From positions 1 to 38,379 of the forward strand of contig JAFVRC010000010.1 of NCBI GenBank assembly GCA_017504485.1: a stretch of 38,379 bases of DNA, written 5' to 3'. This DNA is from Alistipes sp. (lineage in GTDB: Bacteria > Bacteroidota > Bacteroidia > Bacteroidales > Rikenellaceae). Position 1 is the first letter of the stretch; each line of letters begins with the position of its first letter. The position numbers and the translations under genes are program-made. Shown here piece by piece: positions 30,414 to 38,379 of this stretch. A model generated the notes under the pieces. That model was given only the letters and a program-made list of their open reading frames with translations. It ran no database searches and was not told where the DNA came from.

Positions 30414-31100
30414 ATGACAAATCAACCTCTTCGCGAAAAGATACTCTCGGCCATCGTCGAGAAATCGAACCTCAAACAGCGCGTCTTTGATAACACCTTC
30501 TCGGTGTTCAACGAGCTGAAAGATACGTTGCTCGAAATGGCATCGGAGATTGACGATGCCCTCGATGGTCGTCTCGACCGCCGTGTGCGTATCGAGTATC
30601 GCGACCGCGGCAAGTTCGAGGCGCAGTTGCAGATAGCCTCCGATATCCTGATATTCCGTATGCACACCGATGTCTTTGAGTTCGACTCGAACCACCTCGT
30701 GTGGCAAAACGAGTATGTGCAGAGCAATCGCGCCAACTCCTACTGCGGAATTATCGACATTTACGACTTCCTCTCCGACTCCTTCAAGTTTAACCGCTCG
30801 GCCGACGAGGGCTACCTCATAGGGCGTATCTTCATCAACCGTGAGCGTATGTTCTTTGTCGAGGGCAAGCGTCAAACCTCGATGCGCGTGATGAACTTCG
30901 GCCGCGAGCCACTTTCGCGCGAGGCCCTTATCGTGGTGTTGGAGACAGCTCTCAACTATGCCCTCAACTTCGACCTGCTCACGCCGCCTTACGAAGAGAA
31001 CAAGCGCGTGACGGTCGAGCAGTTCAATACGAAGATGGATAATTCGAAGTTCGTGACGGGCAAACGTCTTGATTATGAGTTTAATGTCGATGATATTTAG
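30414..31100 (+). CDS. Conserved-looking protein of unknown function
   Basis: 228 residues, no signal peptide or membrane segment, so probably cytoplasmic. I do not recognise a named family. The N-terminal half is helical (REKILSAIVEKSNLKQRVFD, FNELKDTLLEMASEIDDALD); the middle is mixed alpha/beta with many aromatic and charged residues (FEFDSNHLVWQNEYVQ, YCGIIDIYDFLSDSFKF); no cysteine motif, P-loop or HTH is evident. Length and codon use match neighbouring real genes. It starts 49 nt after thiL, and its 3' end overlaps the start of the peptidase gene, so the two are translationally coupled. Its tie to the secreted-enzyme block is by position only. Confidence 0.75.
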   Translation: MTNQPLREKILSAIVEKSNLKQRVFDNTFSVFNELKDTLLEMASEIDDALDGRLDRRVRIEYRDRGKFEAQLQIASDILIFRMHTDVFEFDSNHLVWQNEYVQSNRANSYCGIIDIYDFLSDSFKFNRSADEGYLIGRIFINRERMFFVEGKRQTSMRVMNFGREPLSREALIVVLETALNYALNFDLLTPPYEENKRVTVEQFNTKMDNSKFVTGKRLDYEFNVDDI

Positions 31101-33210
31101 CCGACTGCGATGGCTGTTGGCCGTTGCGGCGATTGTTGTAGCGGAAGTTGCGCAGGCGGCCGATGAGTATGCCGACGTATTGCACACGCGAAATGCCAAT
31201 CGGGGTATTGCGATGTTGCGCTCGATGGCCGACGGATGTCACTACACCACCTGCGAGGGAAACTCGATATATCGCCACTCCTATGCGCGGCGTGGTGAGA
31301 AAGAGCGGCTGCTTGCGGTCGATTTTAAGGTTGCCGACTACACCTTTTCGCCCGACGAGCAGCGCGTGTTGCTCTCGGATGCCGCCTCCGTGAAGCCTAT
31401 CTATCGCCACTCGGCTACGGCCGACTATTGGCTTGCGGATGTGAAGGGTGCGGCCGAGTGTGTGCTGCGCGGAGTGCGCGACGTGAGCTTTACGCCCGAT
31501 GGTCGCAGGCTCCTCTATGCCAAGGAGAATAACCTATATATCTATGATATATCGTCGCGCAGTGAGAGTGCTATTACGCAGGATGGTCGCTGGAACGAGG
31601 TAATCAACGGAACAAGCGATTGGGTGTATGAGGAGGAGTACGGCTTCACGCGAGCCTATGCTATCTCGCCCGATGGAGGGCAGGTGGCCTATCTGCGCTT
31701 CGATGAGCGGCGTGTGCCACTTTTCGAGATGATGCGCTACGACAACTCGCTCTACAACAAGGCCTACACCTTCAAATACCCGAAGGCGGGCGACAAAAAC
31801 TCGAAGGTCGAATTGTGGCTCTATGACCTTGCTGCGCAGAGTGGCCGTAAGGTCGATACGGGAGAGTGTGACGACCAATATATCTTCAACCTCGGTTGGA
31901 CACCCGCGGGCGAACTCTACTTCTACCGCGTAAATCGGCTGCAAAACCACTTCGAGGTGCTCCTGTTGCGGCGTGACGGTACGCAGCGTGTCATCTATGA
32001 TGAACGCTCGCCACGCTACGTCGAGCGACCAAACGGCTCGACCATCAGCTTTGTGGATGGCGAGCGATTTGTCGTGCGCGAGGAGACCACAACGGGGTAT
32101 ATGCACCTCTATCTGCATTCGGTGTCGAAGGGGAGAATACGCCCTCTGACGGCCGGTAAGTGGGAGGTGGCGCAGGTGGTGGCCGTAACGCCGAAGAGCG
32201 TATATTTGCTCTCGACCGAGCGGTCGCCTCTCAACCGCGACCTTGTAGTGTGTGACTACCGCGGTCGCTGCCGCCGACTCACCTCGCAACCGGGCTTCTA
32301 CTCGGTGCAGCCGTCGTGCGGTGCGAAGTTCTATGTGCAGAGTTTCACGAATGTCGATACGCCGAATGTCATCACCGTGCATCGTGCCGATGGCTCGGTA
32401 GTCGATACGCTGGCCGATAGACGTGCCGACGTGGCCGCTACGGGCCGCTGGGCTCGCAAGGAGTTCCGTCAGTTTACGACCGAGCGTGGCGATACGCTCA
32501 ACTACTATGTGCAGCTGCCCGAGGACTTCGATGCCTCGAAGAGATACCCCGTGCTGTTGACGCAGTACTCGGGCCCGGGTTCGCAGTCAGTGCGTAACCG
32601 TTGGTCGCTCGATTGGGAGGATGCCATGGTGCGCAAAGGGTATATTGTGGCCTGCTGCGATGGTCGTGGCACGGGCTTCCGTGGCGAGGCCTTCAAGAAG
32701 GTGACCTATGCCGACCTCGGCCGCAAGGAGGTGGAGGATCAACTCTCCTTTGCTCGCTATTTAGTCTCGCAGAGTTGGGTTGATGCCGAGCGTATAGGTA
32801 TCTACGGTTGGTCGTATGGCGGCTTTATGGCGCTCAATTGCGCTCTGCACGGCGAGGGCCTGTTCCGTATGGCAATCGCTGTCGCGCCGGTCACTTCGTG
32901 GCGGTATTACGATACGATTTACACCGAGATATACAATGGCCTGCCGCAGGATAACCCCAAGGGTTATGACGACAATTCGCCGCTGTACCACGCTGCGAAG
33001 CTCTCGCCTCGCACGCGCTTGCTGATAATCCACGGCACGGCGGACGACAATGTCCATTTTCAGAACTCGATGGAGATGTGCCGCCGGCTCAACGAGGCGG
33101 GCAAGCAGTACGATATGATGGTCTATCCCGACCAAAATCACTCTATGCGCCCCTCGGCAACGTCACTCGTGCGTCAAAAGATGATTGACTATACAACCAA
33201 AAACTTATAA
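31084..33210 (+). CDS. Dipeptidyl peptidase IV (S9B serine peptidase)
   Basis: Exported exopeptidase that removes X-Pro (or X-Ala) dipeptides from peptide N-termini. 708 residues from ATG 31084; ATG 31075 or 31090 are alternatives, all overlapping the upstream gene. Signal peptide (RLRWLLAVAAIVVAEVAQA), then an eight-blade beta-propeller with the N-terminus-binding DWVYEEE motif. The alpha/beta hydrolase domain has catalytic Ser577 in GWSYGG, Asp in HGTADDNVHF (around 654-655) and His686 in DQNHSM. Complete triad, family length. The next gene begins 4 nt downstream. Confidence 0.94.
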   Translation: MSMIFSRLRWLLAVAAIVVAEVAQAADEYADVLHTRNANRGIAMLRSMADGCHYTTCEGNSIYRHSYARRGEKERLLAVDFKVADYTFSPDEQRVLLSDAASVKPIYRHSATADYWLADVKGAAECVLRGVRDVSFTPDGRRLLYAKENNLYIYDISSRSESAITQDGRWNEVINGTSDWVYEEEYGFTRAYAISPDGGQVAYLRFDERRVPLFEMMRYDNSLYNKAYTFKYPKAGDKNSKVELWLYDLAAQSGRKVDTGECDDQYIFNLGWTPAGELYFYRVNRLQNHFEVLLLRRDGTQRVIYDERSPRYVERPNGSTISFVDGERFVVREETTTGYMHLYLHSVSKGRIRPLTAGKWEVAQVVAVTPKSVYLLSTERSPLNRDLVVCDYRGRCRRLTSQPGFYSVQPSCGAKFYVQSFTNVDTPNVITVHRADGSVVDTLADRRADVAATGRWARKEFRQFTTERGDTLNYYVQLPEDFDASKRYPVLLTQYSGPGSQSVRNRWSLDWEDAMVRKGYIVACCDGRGTGFRGEAFKKVTYADLGRKEVEDQLSFARYLVSQSWVDAERIGIYGWSYGGFMALNCALHGEGLFRMAIAVAPVTSWRYYDTIYTEIYNGLPQDNPKGYDDNSPLYHAAKLSPRTRLLIIHGTADDNVHFQNSMEMCRRLNEAGKQYDMMVYPDQNHSMRPSATSLVRQKMIDYTTKNL

Positions 33211-34333: not shown

Positions 34334-35416
34334 ATGAAGAGAGTAATTGTAGTTGCGGCACTCGTTCTTGTCGCTGTTGCGAGTTATGCAGCCCCCAAGG
34401 TATCGCGAAAGTATGTCGATGCCTCGACACTGACCGTAATCAACAAGGCACAGCCGGGTGGTGGTGCTTTTGAGCGTCTTGACGTGGCGCGCTATACGCT
34501 GACGGATGGTGCAGATAAGGTCTTTCGCCAATCGACAGGTCTGGCTGTCGTATTCCGTACCAATAGCAGCTCTATTTCGGCCCGCTGGACCACCGACTAT
34601 CGCACCCCGCGACCTATCACGACCGATGTCTTTGAGGATGGTCTTGATCTCTTTATTCGCCACGAAGGCGAATGGGTATTTGCAGGCATTGCCCGTCCGG
34701 TGCTCAAAGGCGATAGGTATGAGTTTGTGATTGTCAAGCATCTGCCTGAGGGCGAGAAGGAGTGTATGCTCTATATGCCGATGTATTCGCGCGTCAGCTC
34801 GCTCGAGATAGGCATTGATAGAGATGCTGCAATCGAGGCTGCGTCATCGCCCTTCAAACATAAGGTGGTGTTTGTAGGCTCGTCGCTCACGCATGGTGCT
34901 GCCGCTTCGCGTCCGGGCATGAGCTATGTTGCGCGTGTTGGCCGAATCATAAATGCCGAAACGCCTAATTTCGGCCATAATGGTCAGTGCCGTTTCCAGC
35001 AACATTTTGTCGATATCGTCTGCAATACGGAGGCTGATGCCTTTGTCTTTGACGCCTTCTCGAACCCGACGGGCAAGGCTATCGAGGAGAATCTCTACGA
35101 TTTTGTGCGTAAAATTCGTACCAAGCACAAGGATACGCCACTCATCTTTTTGCAGACCATCAAGCGTGACAACGGCATCTTCGATGCAAAGGGCCGAGCC
35201 AATAATGACTATCGACTCAGAGCAGCCACGCAGGGTATGGCCCGCGTATGCAAGGACTTTAGAAATGTATATTTCATAAATCCGGCCTTTGATGTAGGCG
35301 ATGACCATACGGGTACCATCGATGGCTTGCATCTGAACGATATAGGCGTGGAGCGCATGTTGAAGGTCGTAGGTCCACGCCTCAAGAGTATTCTCAAAAA
35401 ACACGGAATAAAGTAA
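34334..35416 (+). CDS. SGNH/GDSL hydrolase with GxDLY N-domain (tandem copy 2)
   Basis: 360 residues, 18 nt after copy 1. Signal peptide MKRVIVVAALVLVAVASYA|A. N-domain with DGLDLFIRHEGEWVFAGIAR (the GxDLY Tyr is Phe here), then GSSLTHGAAASRPGMSY (nucleophile Ser), NFGHNGQCRF, FDAFSNPTGKA, and DGLHLNDIG with Asp and His. Complete SGNH set. Closest to copy 3, with which it shares the FKHKVVFVGSS, QQHFVDIVC and TPLIFLQTIKRD segments. Exported, probably periplasmic; substrate unknown, acetylated glycan favoured. Confidence 0.9.
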   Translation: MKRVIVVAALVLVAVASYAAPKVSRKYVDASTLTVINKAQPGGGAFERLDVARYTLTDGADKVFRQSTGLAVVFRTNSSSISARWTTDYRTPRPITTDVFEDGLDLFIRHEGEWVFAGIARPVLKGDRYEFVIVKHLPEGEKECMLYMPMYSRVSSLEIGIDRDAAIEAASSPFKHKVVFVGSSLTHGAAASRPGMSYVARVGRIINAETPNFGHNGQCRFQQHFVDIVCNTEADAFVFDAFSNPTGKAIEENLYDFVRKIRTKHKDTPLIFLQTIKRDNGIFDAKGRANNDYRLRAATQGMARVCKDFRNVYFINPAFDVGDDHTGTIDGLHLNDIGVERMLKVVGPRLKSILKKHGIK

Positions 35417-35436: not shown

Positions 35437-36528
35437 ATGAAAAAAATTATTGCTATCGCAGTGTCGTTGCTCGTTGTGGCAACCGCTGTCGCTGCTCCGA
35501 AGAACACGAAAATGAAGTATGTCGATGCCTCGACACTTACGATTATCAACAAGGTGCACAATGCCGGCAAGCCGCTTGCACGCCTCGATGTCGAGCGTTA
35601 TAAGCTCACGAAGAGTGCGATAAATGCATTCAGCCAATCGACGGGCCTGGCCGTAGTGTTCCGCACCAACAGTAAGAACATCTCGGCACATTGGGTTACC
35701 GATGCGCGTTACATGGGCACCAACTCGTCGGCCACCTTCCAGCGTGGTCTCGATATCTTCATCCGCCACAATGGCGAGTGGGTATTTGCAGGTGTGGGCC
35801 GTCCGAAGTCCAACCCGAGAGTTGGCGAGCATGAGTTTACTCTCGTACGTCGTATGGATGAGGGCGAGAAGGAGTGTATGGTCTATCTGCCTATGTTCTC
35901 GCGTGTTGAGTCACTCTCGATAGGTGTCGATAAGGATGCTACGATTGAGGCCCTGCCGTCGCCTTTCAAGCATAAGATTGTGTTTGTCGGCTCATCGATT
36001 ACACACGGAGCCTCGGCCGGTCGTCCGGGTGCTTCGTATGTGGCCGCTCTGGGCCGTGCCCTCAATGCCGAGACGCCAAACCTCGGTCATAGCGGTCAGT
36101 GCAAGCTTCAGCAGCACTTCGTCGATATCGTATGCGACACGGAGGCCGATGCTTTCGTCTTCGATACTTTCTCCAACTCGACGGACAAGATTATCGACGC
36201 ACGTCTCTACGACTTTGTGAAGGATATCCGTGCCAAGCATAAGGATACGCCGCTTATCTTCTTGCAGACTATCAAGCGCGATATCGGCTTCTTCGACCTC
36301 GGTGCACGCAAGCGTAACGACGACCAGCGTGCTGCGGCCGAGCGAGGTATGGCCAAGGTGATGGCAGATTTCAAGGGGGTATATTTCCTCAATCCGGGCC
36401 TCATTTTGGGCGATGACCATGCGGGTACTATCGATGGTACGCACCTGAACGACCTCGGAGTCTATCGCACGGTGCAGTATCTCACCCCGAAGATCAAGAA
36501 GATTCTCAAGAAGCACGGCATTAAATAG
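35437..36528 (+). CDS. SGNH/GDSL hydrolase with GxDLY N-domain (tandem copy 3)
   Basis: 363 residues, 20 nt after copy 2. Signal peptide MKKIIAIAVSLLVVATAVA|A. N-domain RGLDIFIRHNGEWVFAGVGR (GxDIF variant), then GSSITHGASAGRPGASY, NLGHSGQCKL, FDTFSNSTDKI, and DGTHLNDLG with Asp-x-x-His. All catalytic blocks intact. Shares long blocks with copy 2 (QQHFVDIVCDTEADAFVFD), showing a recent duplication, and the KKHGIK end with both. The GH28-like gene starts 8 nt downstream, so the four form one message. Confidence 0.9.
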   Translation: MKKIIAIAVSLLVVATAVAAPKNTKMKYVDASTLTIINKVHNAGKPLARLDVERYKLTKSAINAFSQSTGLAVVFRTNSKNISAHWVTDARYMGTNSSATFQRGLDIFIRHNGEWVFAGVGRPKSNPRVGEHEFTLVRRMDEGEKECMVYLPMFSRVESLSIGVDKDATIEALPSPFKHKIVFVGSSITHGASAGRPGASYVAALGRALNAETPNLGHSGQCKLQQHFVDIVCDTEADAFVFDTFSNSTDKIIDARLYDFVKDIRAKHKDTPLIFLQTIKRDIGFFDLGARKRNDDQRAAAERGMAKVMADFKGVYFLNPGLILGDDHAGTIDGTHLNDLGVYRTVQYLTPKIKKILKKHGIK

Positions 36529-36536
36529 TAGGTAGC

Positions 36537-37937
36537 ATGAAGCGATTACTGATTCTCTTGGCGGTGGTGGCCGGTGTGCTGACCGCCTCGGCACGCGAGC
36601 ACTACAACGTGCGCGACTTTGGTGCCAAGGGTAATGGCAAGAGCAACTCTACGGAGGCCATCAATAAGGCTATTACGCACTGCAACGAGCAGGGTGGCGG
36701 CGTGGTGGTAGTGCCCGAAGGCCGCTACCTTTCGGGGACCATTCACCTGAAGAGCAATGTCGAGTTGCGCCTCGAAAAGGGTGCAGTGCTGATGGGTGTC
36801 GAAGACCCGAAGCAATATACGGGCTACGTCTGCCGACGTGAGGGCTTCGAGAAGTACAAGGTGGCCTATGCCGAGTATTGGAACCATACGTTTATTCTCG
36901 GTGTCGGGTGCCGCAACGTCGCCATCACGGGCGATGGAGTGATTGATGGCCGCCACATCTACGACCCCGAGGGCGAGGCTCACTTCCGCGGGCCGCACGC
37001 AGTGCTGTTTGCCGAGTGTGACGGCGTGACGTTGCGAGGTGTGCATATCACTCGCGCTTCGAACTACGCGGTTATGGCCTATGAACTCGAAAATGCGGTT
37101 ATCGAGAATGTGAAGATTACCGAGGGTTGCGACGCAGTGCATATCCGCGGTGCGAAGAACCTCGCCATCCGCGATTGCTCATTTGAGACGGGTGACGACT
37201 GCATCGCCGGTGGCTATTGGGAGAATGCGGTTATCTCGCGTTGCTACCTGAACTCCACCTGCAACGGCATACGCATACTCTTCCCCGTTACGAACTGCGA
37301 GATTGCGCACTGTCGTATCGAGGGCCCGGGCCACTATGTGCAGCGACATCTCGCCAAACTTACGGGTCGTATGTTGGCCGCCGTCATTGTTCAGCCGGGT
37401 GCGTGGTGGCCGGCCGTGGGGCCTGTGAAGAATCTCTATCTGCACGACCTCGAGATCGACAACTTAAAGTGTGCCTTTGCCTGCGACCTGAAGATGAACA
37501 CTTGGTCGGAGGGTATCCGCTTGGAGCGCATCAAGGCTACGCGCATCTACGACTCGGCGTTGCAGATTGAGGCGTGGCGCGGCGGCATTCACGAGGATGT
37601 CGTGCTGCGCGACGTGAGTGTCGAGTATGTGGGGCGCACGGACGACAAGGCTCGCAATGCTGTGTTGAAAACCCCTCGCCGCGAGGCTCGCGTAGTGCCG
37701 TATTGGGCGCTTTTCGTACGCAATATCCGCAACCTCACGCTCGAGAATCTCAACTTCACCTATACGGGCGAGGAGTGCCGCTCGGCTATCGGCATCCACA
37801 ATGTCTTTAACCTGACGCAGCAGGGTGTCGAGGCGCAGAGTGTCGAGGGTTGTCCGACTATCCACGCCGAGGAGTGTCCTCTGGTTCCCGAGTCGCAGAC
37901 CAAGAATTACGTTCCGGGCGTATCGCCCAAGAGGTAG
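36537..37937 (+). CDS. GH28-like right-handed beta-helix protein (polygalacturonase superfamily)
   Basis: 466 residues, signal peptide to about LTASA|REH. N-terminal YNVRDFGAKGNGKSNSTEAI and GGGVVVVPEGRYLSGTIHLK are the start of the pectinase/GH28 helix. The catalytic region reads EGCDAVHIRGAKN, then ETGDDCIAGG (the DD pair), then STCNGIRILFP. The family motifs NTD, (G/Q)DD, GHG and RIK are therefore only partly kept: the first Asp and the DD pair remain, but I find no GHG histidine. It may be an active outlier on a modified uronan or a beta-helix with changed specificity. Last gene of the secreted-enzyme operon, followed by a terminator. Confidence 0.82.
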   Translation: MKRLLILLAVVAGVLTASAREHYNVRDFGAKGNGKSNSTEAINKAITHCNEQGGGVVVVPEGRYLSGTIHLKSNVELRLEKGAVLMGVEDPKQYTGYVCRREGFEKYKVAYAEYWNHTFILGVGCRNVAITGDGVIDGRHIYDPEGEAHFRGPHAVLFAECDGVTLRGVHITRASNYAVMAYELENAVIENVKITEGCDAVHIRGAKNLAIRDCSFETGDDCIAGGYWENAVISRCYLNSTCNGIRILFPVTNCEIAHCRIEGPGHYVQRHLAKLTGRMLAAVIVQPGAWWPAVGPVKNLYLHDLEIDNLKCAFACDLKMNTWSEGIRLERIKATRIYDSALQIEAWRGGIHEDVVLRDVSVEYVGRTDDKARNAVLKTPRREARVVPYWALFVRNIRNLTLENLNFTYTGEECRSAIGIHNVFNLTQQGVEAQSVEGCPTIHAEECPLVPESQTKNYVPGVSPKR

Positions 37938-37964
37938 GTGACTACCATACGCATCTCTCTTCGA

Positions 37965-38010
37965 AAAGAGGATGTGCCCCGGTATCGATGGGCGCATCCT
38001 CTTTGGTTTA
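37965..38010 (+). terminator. Intrinsic terminator after the GH28-like gene
   Basis: AAAGAGGATGTGCCC (37965-37979) pairs with GGGCGCATCCTCTTT (37990-38004), 15 pairs with one G-U, 10-nt loop, followed by a modest T-rich tail (GGTTTA). Confidence 0.8.
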
Positions 38011-38023
38011 CATAGGTGTAAAG

Positions 38024-38054
38024 TTGCATTTTTACGAAATTTTTCATATCTTTG
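38024..38054 (+). promoter_or_regulatory. Promoter of the terminal lipoprotein gene
   Basis: TTG (38024-38026), 20-nt spacer, TATCTTTG (38047-38054). The leader to the ATG at 38205 is about 145 nt, AT-rich, unusually long for this window. Confidence 0.8.
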
Positions 38055-38204
38055 TCGAAACAGGGTTGTATGCCCCTCTGAGGCCGATTTTTCGTGGGGA
38101 GGGGTAGGTACTTCTCTAAAAATTGGCATTTTTTTGTTTTATAATGTAAAACAGAGTAAAATTTTTACAAAAAAATACACAACCAAATCAAAATCCTAAA
38201 CAAG

Positions 38205-38379
38205 ATGAAAAAAATTGCTAAACTAGCGTTGTTGTTCGCTGCCGTCGGCCTTGCCGCCTGTACGAATGACACGACGGAGGATCTGGTGACATCGCCGGAC
38301 TTCGTGGGGGGGGGGTAGTGTCAAGACTCTCTCCATTGCTCTCGACACCGATACGAAGGTGGCGTTGGGCGAGAAGACA
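38205..38379 (+). CDS. Lipoprotein, frame broken at a G10 tract, 3' truncated by window
   Basis: ATG 38205 opens a lipoprotein signal: MKKIAKLALLFAAVGLAAC, with lipobox LAAC and Cys19, then acidic TNDTTEDLVTSPDF. After Val34 comes a run of ten G (38306-38315), and the frame hits TAG at 38316-38318. With nine G the frame would continue GGGSVKTLSIALDTDTKVAL and stay open to the window end. The restored start (short linker, then a beta-rich segment with DTKVALGEKT) resembles the N-termini of Bacteroidetes surface lipoproteins such as fimbrillin-like proteins; that family guess is weak. Either a phase-variable gene in the off state or a homopolymer length error. It has a good promoter and stands apart from the operon upstream. 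Confidence 0.7.
38306..38315. repeat. Homopolymer G10 tract in a coding region
   Basis: Ten consecutive G, the longest G-run in the window, placed 16 codons after the lipobox cysteine. Change of one G switches the frame between stop (G10) and open (G9). Confidence 0.85.

Follow-up and report, generated by a model that had tools for sequence, protein, structure and literature searches.

The window, by which we mean the whole stretch of DNA that was analysed, is one entire contig (C7; 38,379 bases) of a 1.92 Mb draft Alistipes genome in 48 contigs that is 82% complete. At its 3′ end, on the forward strand, lies the head of a lipoprotein gene, seen in an out-of-frame state as an ORF of 37 codons closed by a TAG (38205..38318; ATG at 38205). 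The head carries a lipoprotein-type signal ending in LAAC, which we take to be a lipobox motif, with the Cys codon read by eye at 38259..38261 on the same strand. Codons 34-37 fall in a tract of ten G (38306..38315, + strand), the TAG follows directly at 38316-38318, and the head frame is shut after VGGG. Another frame is open from the tract start to the end of the contig, a distance of 25 codons. The start of the gene body (38316..38379, + strand), which is in a different frame from that of the head, is truncated by the contig end 64 nt 3′ of the tract. As the edge of the window is the edge of the contig, the complete frame is not readable from the window alone. This anatomy is as the initial annotation had described it: ten G running straight into a stop codon, a lipoprotein signal ahead of them, and a tract so close behind the lipobox that the OFF state yields a short peptide.

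Upstream of the head, a gene encoding a GH28/pectate-lyase-like protein (36537-37937) is followed by a hairpin between the two genes (37965..38004, + strand), with 15-nt arms that are 93% complementary and a predicted fold of -27.3 kcal/mol (z -5.0). A promoter-like element, TTG-N20-TATCTTTG, is found at 38024..38054 on the + strand, 150 nt upstream of the head, and has the form of what we take to be the Bacteroidetes-type promoter consensus. Because this element lies downstream of a hairpin that comes after the upstream gene, the lipoprotein gene probably has a transcript start of its own. The initial annotation spoke of a strong promoter, although its own coordinates (38205..38379) do not reach the element. 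A strong promoter here is plausible but unproven, given that mononucleotide shuffling of the 268 nt upstream yielded a match of this type in 1.35% of 2000 trials and that such an element lies within 300 nt upstream of just 3/8 sister heads. The whole window contains two matches to the promoter-like pattern on the + strand and six on the - strand. Three inverted repeats were found in the 530 nt around the locus (37850-38379), none of which has one arm on each side of 38024-38054, and an invertible promoter was therefore rejected. Conserved synteny was also considered: the GH28-like gene has relatives in Alistipes, yet in six stretches reaching about 1.4-1.5 kb beyond the match (L256-L261) no member of the lipoprotein family follows it. 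On its other side, the GH28-like gene is flanked by two adjacent tandem GxDLY/GDSL esterase genes (34334-35416 and 35437-36528), with a prolyl-oligopeptidase (DPP-IV-like) gene at 31069-33210 upstream of the esterase pair.

The window's genome contains 14 protein-level matches to a family of giant lipoproteins. One sister gene, on contig C32, has a head that is 98% identical to that of the window over 175 nt; the two agree at every one of the 65 nt before and 64 nt behind the tract, but C32 has nine G where the window has ten. With nine G the C32 gene is in frame and open for 262 codons, to the end of its contig, in agreement with the earlier prediction that removal of one G would open the frame. 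Nine G, again in frame, are also found in two family copies on C44 (1289 and 1192 codons) and in a copy of 1385 codons on C24 whose 5′ end is missing, whilst the nine-G head on C45 continues for 17 codons from the tract start before it is truncated. In the remaining sister genes the G-runs are interrupted or absent. Contig C2, read in reverse, starts inside a G-run, and its first 68 nt consist of four G followed by the last 64 nt of the window, after which a frame of 1615 codons is open. C2 is probably the body of the window's gene, the link between the two being 68 shared bases that are common to C32 too. One and the same family head stands at the ends of two contigs (C6:6469-6791 and C45:9832-10154; L042 and L040), with 98% identity over 323 nt; their G-runs at the position of the tract are interrupted differently, and they may be recent duplicates or strain variants.

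G-runs of at least eight were counted across the 1.92-Mb genome, giving 25 runs (six of eight, 15 of nine, three of ten and one of twelve). Runs of at least nine numbered 19 versus six runs of eight, where about 27% of the 25 would be expected to reach nine (P = 5e-7), an expectation that assumes independent bases with 27% G, as measured on 228 kb. Nine of the 19 were judged intergenic from their ORF context and ten coding, the latter lying on the sense strand no more than about 80 codons from the start of genes for exported proteins. Six of these ten tracts are in the giant-lipoprotein family and four in genes that are unrelated (two on C13; a DUF3575 gene at C20:32309; a fibronectin-III lipoprotein at C20:126127). 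Nine of the ten have nine G and stay in frame for as long as their contigs last, and the G10 of the window alone is out of frame. Measured from the start of the tract, both wrong frames of the nine in-frame copies close after 3-68 codons; in one case it is a contig end that limits the figure. The window and the in-frame copies thus share a homopolymer in the 5′ part of the coding sequence, a change in the length of which closes the frame, as in a contingency locus.

Nor does the use of glycine or of its codons account for the tract. GGG makes up 246 of 4734 Gly codons (5.2%). Resampling of synonymous codons in 113 ORFs, which come from loci chosen around tracts, produced a mean of 0.02 runs of at least nine G and a maximum of one in 100 trials, compared with seven observed. 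Extrapolated to the whole genome, which has at most 641,000 codons, some 0.2 tracts would be expected versus the nine in-frame tracts present. Moreover, the start of the tract falls on the first, second or third codon position depending on the gene, and its length is nine G in 9/9 in-frame copies. With three codon phases and a single length, it is the DNA run, not a glycine linker, that looks conserved. Runs of at least nine G are not rare, however, there being 19 in 1.92 Mb and at least one in each of 180/180 genomes of the genus, and a run alone is therefore weak evidence. We rejected chance as the sole cause. With G-runs occurring in many contexts across the genus, little weight was placed on the run itself and more on its position, which is not chance-like, and on frame and relatives.

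The family was also found in named genomes at 13 loci, 10 from Alistipes MAGs and three from Rikenellaceae MAGs. The records of 9/13 mention sheep, yak or water buffalo, and the host habitat of the window's Alistipes is probably the animal gut. Sixty relatives, themselves chosen among the matches listed, were compared at their heads; they include the genes L067 and L068 and two from the window's genome, and 49 heads were readable once ten relatives without a head and one misread (L161) had been dropped. No coding tract is present in 47 of the 49, and all 47 are open to the end of the fetched stretch. In L067 an in-frame run of nine G lies past the lipobox, where L063 of the same MAG has no tract; L068 has nine G at a different place, inside the signal peptide, and again in frame. 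Across the genus, then, a minority of family members have the tract, though it is common in the window's genome. Noncoding G-runs of at least eight lie upstream of 6/60 relatives; these, along with the 9/19 intergenic runs of the window's own genome, were left out of the switch counts, being in part hairpin-like pairings of a C-run with a G-run when read by eye. Noncoding G-runs of 9-12 at L122, L129, L133, L160 and L164, and on C14, C35 and C43 of the window's genome, are situated 60-240 nt upstream of lipoprotein genes, often with a C-run before them and a (T)ATTTTG-like stretch after them, and some look by eye like terminator or attenuator hairpins.

Genomes of the genus were surveyed for a lipoprotein-like start followed by the tract. 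The pattern used (at least nine G, a short gap after TGY) misses eight-G tracts and the window's own gene; no completeness limit was set within the genus, and genomes at least 85% complete were used in the order-wide survey. The genus gave 49 rows in 30/180 genomes, the window's own included, and the reversed pattern gave six. These reduce to 44 distinct sites, one of them from the window's genome (L279), of which 26 are in frame, nine are out of frame with a long frame elsewhere, six are noncoding or stopped before the tract and three are ambiguous. Out-of-frame heads therefore make up 9/35 genic tract sites versus 0/47 tractless family heads (Fisher P = 2e-4), the gene families on the two sides of this comparison being different. 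Of the nine sites that are out of frame in relatives, six are G9, their state having been read from the frame and not from an unusual length.

Differences in length were seen in SusC-type TonB-dependent receptors, in which the G-run is just 3′ of the signal peptide (L297, L271, L299; L277, L281, L283, L286, L288, L290; domains checked in L297 and L277). In one such receptor, with TonB plug, barrel and CarboxypepD domains, the tract is G9 in G013, G10 in G016 and G11 in G012, three different species. The G013 copy is in frame and the two with longer tracts are out of frame, their bodies matching that of G013 at 386/400 and 323/399 positions. A second group has G9 in frame in five genomes and G9 out of frame in G134, with pairwise body identities of 146/366 to 357/397; the frame state of a further copy, in G139, is ambiguous, its twelve G lying at a contig end. 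Similarly, a lipoprotein that is in frame in G037 has an out-of-frame homologue in G021 (body identity 175/347). L269 and L298 (from G013 and G016) are homologues (72/143) that are both out of frame, a pair that might represent a fixed state, and L309 (G013) is an out-of-frame head that appears by eye to be glycosyltransferase-like. Differences in tract length, with in-frame and out-of-frame states, are thus present both between sister genes and between species.

G-runs were also inspected more widely in three other Alistipes genomes. Sites with at least nine G number 119 in G013, 48 in G005 and 191 in G004, and 90 of them (30/119, 30/48 and 30/191) were inspected. Three proved to be in-frame N-terminal tracts of exported proteins (L169, L195, L253), as judged by eye; the script behind this figure covered in-frame heads and was blind to out-of-frame ones. 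Since most runs in these three genomes are elsewhere, a G-run in the genus is by itself no mark of a switch. Outside the genus, the order (393 genomes including the window's own) gave 10 sites in nine other genomes, and one row for the reversed pattern; one site is in frame, three are out of frame and six are noncoding or ambiguous. Such sites are rare outside the genus, and many genomes of the order there have a lower G+C content, which may contribute to the scarcity. On the 3.79-Mb contig G013:C5, the runs among the 100 listed of 119 are mostly on one strand up to about 1.2 Mb and mostly on the other up to about 3.0 Mb, as if following the direction of replication. At G005:C2:769061-769200, dense G-runs up to 20 long stand beside Ns and have the look of a sequencing or assembly artefact.

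We consider it likely, reading from sequence, that the gene in the window is a poly-G contingency locus governed by slippage and caught in its OFF state. The nine-G sister on C32, the closing of the wrong frames and the variation in tract length among SusC-type orthologues all lend support to the phase-variable lipoprotein that was first proposed. Under this scheme the gene product would be a giant lipoprotein of the outer surface, probably resembling an adhesin and carrying long GLUG-like repeats, and the G-run past the lipidation site would gain or lose a G, reversibly, by slipped-strand mispairing during replication. At nine G the head and the body would share a frame and the protein would be made (ON); at ten G ribosomes would stop at once, and all that could remain once the signal is cleaved is a lipopeptide of some 19 residues (OFF). 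As several sister genes share the tract, each cell might display a random subset of the sister lipoproteins, and such variation may help in avoiding phages, antibodies or competitors.

Some points speak against a switch. The window is one consensus sequence, and its tract sits near the end of a contig, a region more prone to error; among the ten coding tracts of the genome it alone is out of frame. The true tract could instead have nine G and be in frame, the tenth being a sequencing or assembly error; the locus might still be slippery, but the window's copy would then have no OFF state. The short distance from tract to contig end, the start of C2 within the G-run and the nine other coding tracts, all G9 and in frame, fit such an error, as does the clustering of the ends of C7, C45, C24 and C2 around a tract stretch that the sister genes have in common. 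However, out-of-frame copies occur away from contig ends as well, in G013 and in other genomes. L269 and L309 sit inside the 3.79-Mb contig, so that contig ends offer no explanation for them, and the orthologous receptor sites of two species have G10 and G11. On balance we think an error at this tract unlikely, although it is the foremost alternative.

The gene could also be decayed, a family member that is surplus and has lost its switching through a frameshift now fixed, and a paralogous family as large as this one, with its 14 matches, would tolerate single losses. Against such decay, the start and signal are intact, the promoter-like element is present, the body is open for 1615 codons if C2 is indeed that body, and the length of the tract is the sole lesion seen; we regard it as very unlikely. 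Alternatively, the tract stretch could be a recombination point at which sisters swap heads and bodies, the length of the tract being secondary. The nine-G head on C45 points in this direction: the 41 nt after its tract are of the body type shared by C7, C32 and C2, but the last 41 nt before it equal the start of C24, whose own body diverges from that type 4 nt after the tract. This pairing of head and body is either sister recombination or an assembly chimera in the shared stretch, and other species have similar G-runs in genes that are unrelated. We hold crossover as the main role of the tract to be highly improbable. Long homopolymers can cause transcriptional slippage. A run of ten G that tunes output, RNA polymerase or ribosome slippage yielding some full protein, is barely credible to us, for although transcriptional slippage is described on A and T runs (PMC1088944), the nine in-frame genes keep exactly nine G, at which slippage is needless.

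Returning to the slippage switch, a broader version of it would have a poly-G switch set across the genus, taking in lipoproteins, SusC-type receptors and at least one glycosyltransferase, with the tract serving also, in the window's species, as the crossover point between heads and bodies of the giant lipoproteins. We hold this combined scheme to be quite unlikely; if it were true, slippage would set whether, and recombination which, surface protein shows.

Poly-G contingency loci are well documented in other phyla, as the initial annotation had pointed out for Campylobacter and Neisseria. Cells of C. jejuni vary between eight and nine G in cgtB (PMC6437147), and hmbR and hpuAB are described as poly-G contingency genes of Neisseria meningitidis (PMC3786947). 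The Alistipes locus resembles these in having an intragenic G-run in a surface-related gene that a change of one base opens or closes. It differs in belonging to another phylum, in that the gene is for a giant lipoprotein and its tract comes shortly after the lipidation site, and in being known here from sequence alone. Among gut commensals, the nearest parallel is the sortase-pilus of Bifidobacterium breve, a surface structure that is controlled by slippage during replication at a G-tract within the gene; the switch is reported to have been tested by Maximum Depth Sequencing and in mice (PMC9187656). It too is from another phylum, and it concerns pilus genes.

Within the phylum, the phase variation reported for Bacteroides is ascribed to inversion where a mechanism is named (PMC11868660, PMC12355684, PMC3090145), which agrees with the earlier statement that inversion is the usual route. 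Invertible promoters there control capsules and, by way of an invertase, SusC/SusD proteins (PMC11868660, PMC12355684). The candidate switch in Alistipes would likewise turn surface molecules on and off stochastically in the same phylum; however, inversion relies on a recombinase, whereas the Alistipes promoter-like element has no flanking inverted repeats in 530 nt. PMC3090145 also offers slippage as a speculation, for a polysaccharide locus of B. fragilis that has four C in a row. In PMC2831843, which analysed 99 prokaryote genomes, poly-G runs of more than two are described as generally under-represented; its main text has no words beginning Bacteroid, Porphyromonas or Flavobacter. Among the matches listed, no title or abstract opening in the open-access literature mentioned slippage switching in Alistipes or Bacteroidales. 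Most likely, then, the switch would be of a kind already known in other bacteria, in a genus that has no report of it among the literature matches listed. The initial annotation had presented the locus as one odd gene with an unusual mechanism; inversion is indeed the mechanism named in these Bacteroides papers, but the view of a single gene was too narrow, as the genus has many sites.

Searches for inversion would miss changes in the length of a G-run, and out-of-frame annotations of tract genes may be states and not pseudogenes. If Alistipes does switch lipoproteins and SusC-type receptors in this way, heterogeneity within a clone would be expected in phage sensitivity, immune recognition and diet use. 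If slippage is at work, existing metagenome reads could measure switching directly by tract length.

Lastly, the proteins of the family were compared with known domains. Fimbrillin-like and GLUG-repeat proteins are presumably surface proteins of Bacteroidales, and the family resembles both in its lipoprotein N-terminus and in weak Mfa_like and GLUG matches. GLUG (PF07581) scored 17.3 and 14.1 bits in 2/4 own-genome proteins, under the curated Pfam cut-off of 20.5, and was not detected in the other two, which sets the family apart from established GLUG-repeat proteins. Weak matches to an M26 N-terminal region, below the Pfam cut-off, were present in 2/4 own-genome proteins, and we read the family as a repeat-rich surface protein rather than a protease. 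Mfa_like_1 (PF13149) gave no match at E <= 0.1 in the four own-genome proteins and a weak one in 1/10 N-terminal domains of relatives (E = 0.0015); three other unrelated families also each weakly match one of the same ten domains. The N-terminus of the C32 sister scored 18.9 bits against the NCBIfam model PG1828_fam_lipo (cut-off 50). No match to the N-terminal profile was found among solved structures, a further difference from the fimbrillin-like and GLUG-repeat proteins, nor was the 25-base pattern of head and tract found in the viral collection. A small ORF of about 45-54 codons follows the giant lipoprotein gene in 5/6 own-genome genes checked (L041:4180-4320; L045 after 15634, and after 1154 on the - strand; L043 after 1129 on the - strand; L044 after 4919 on the - strand), and all five end in GFGNSLGLGDLETEEGELYY. 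In relatives a small ORF follows in 4/5 genes checked (L062, L063, L068, L069), ending in EED(N/E)LVY or EEDDLIY.
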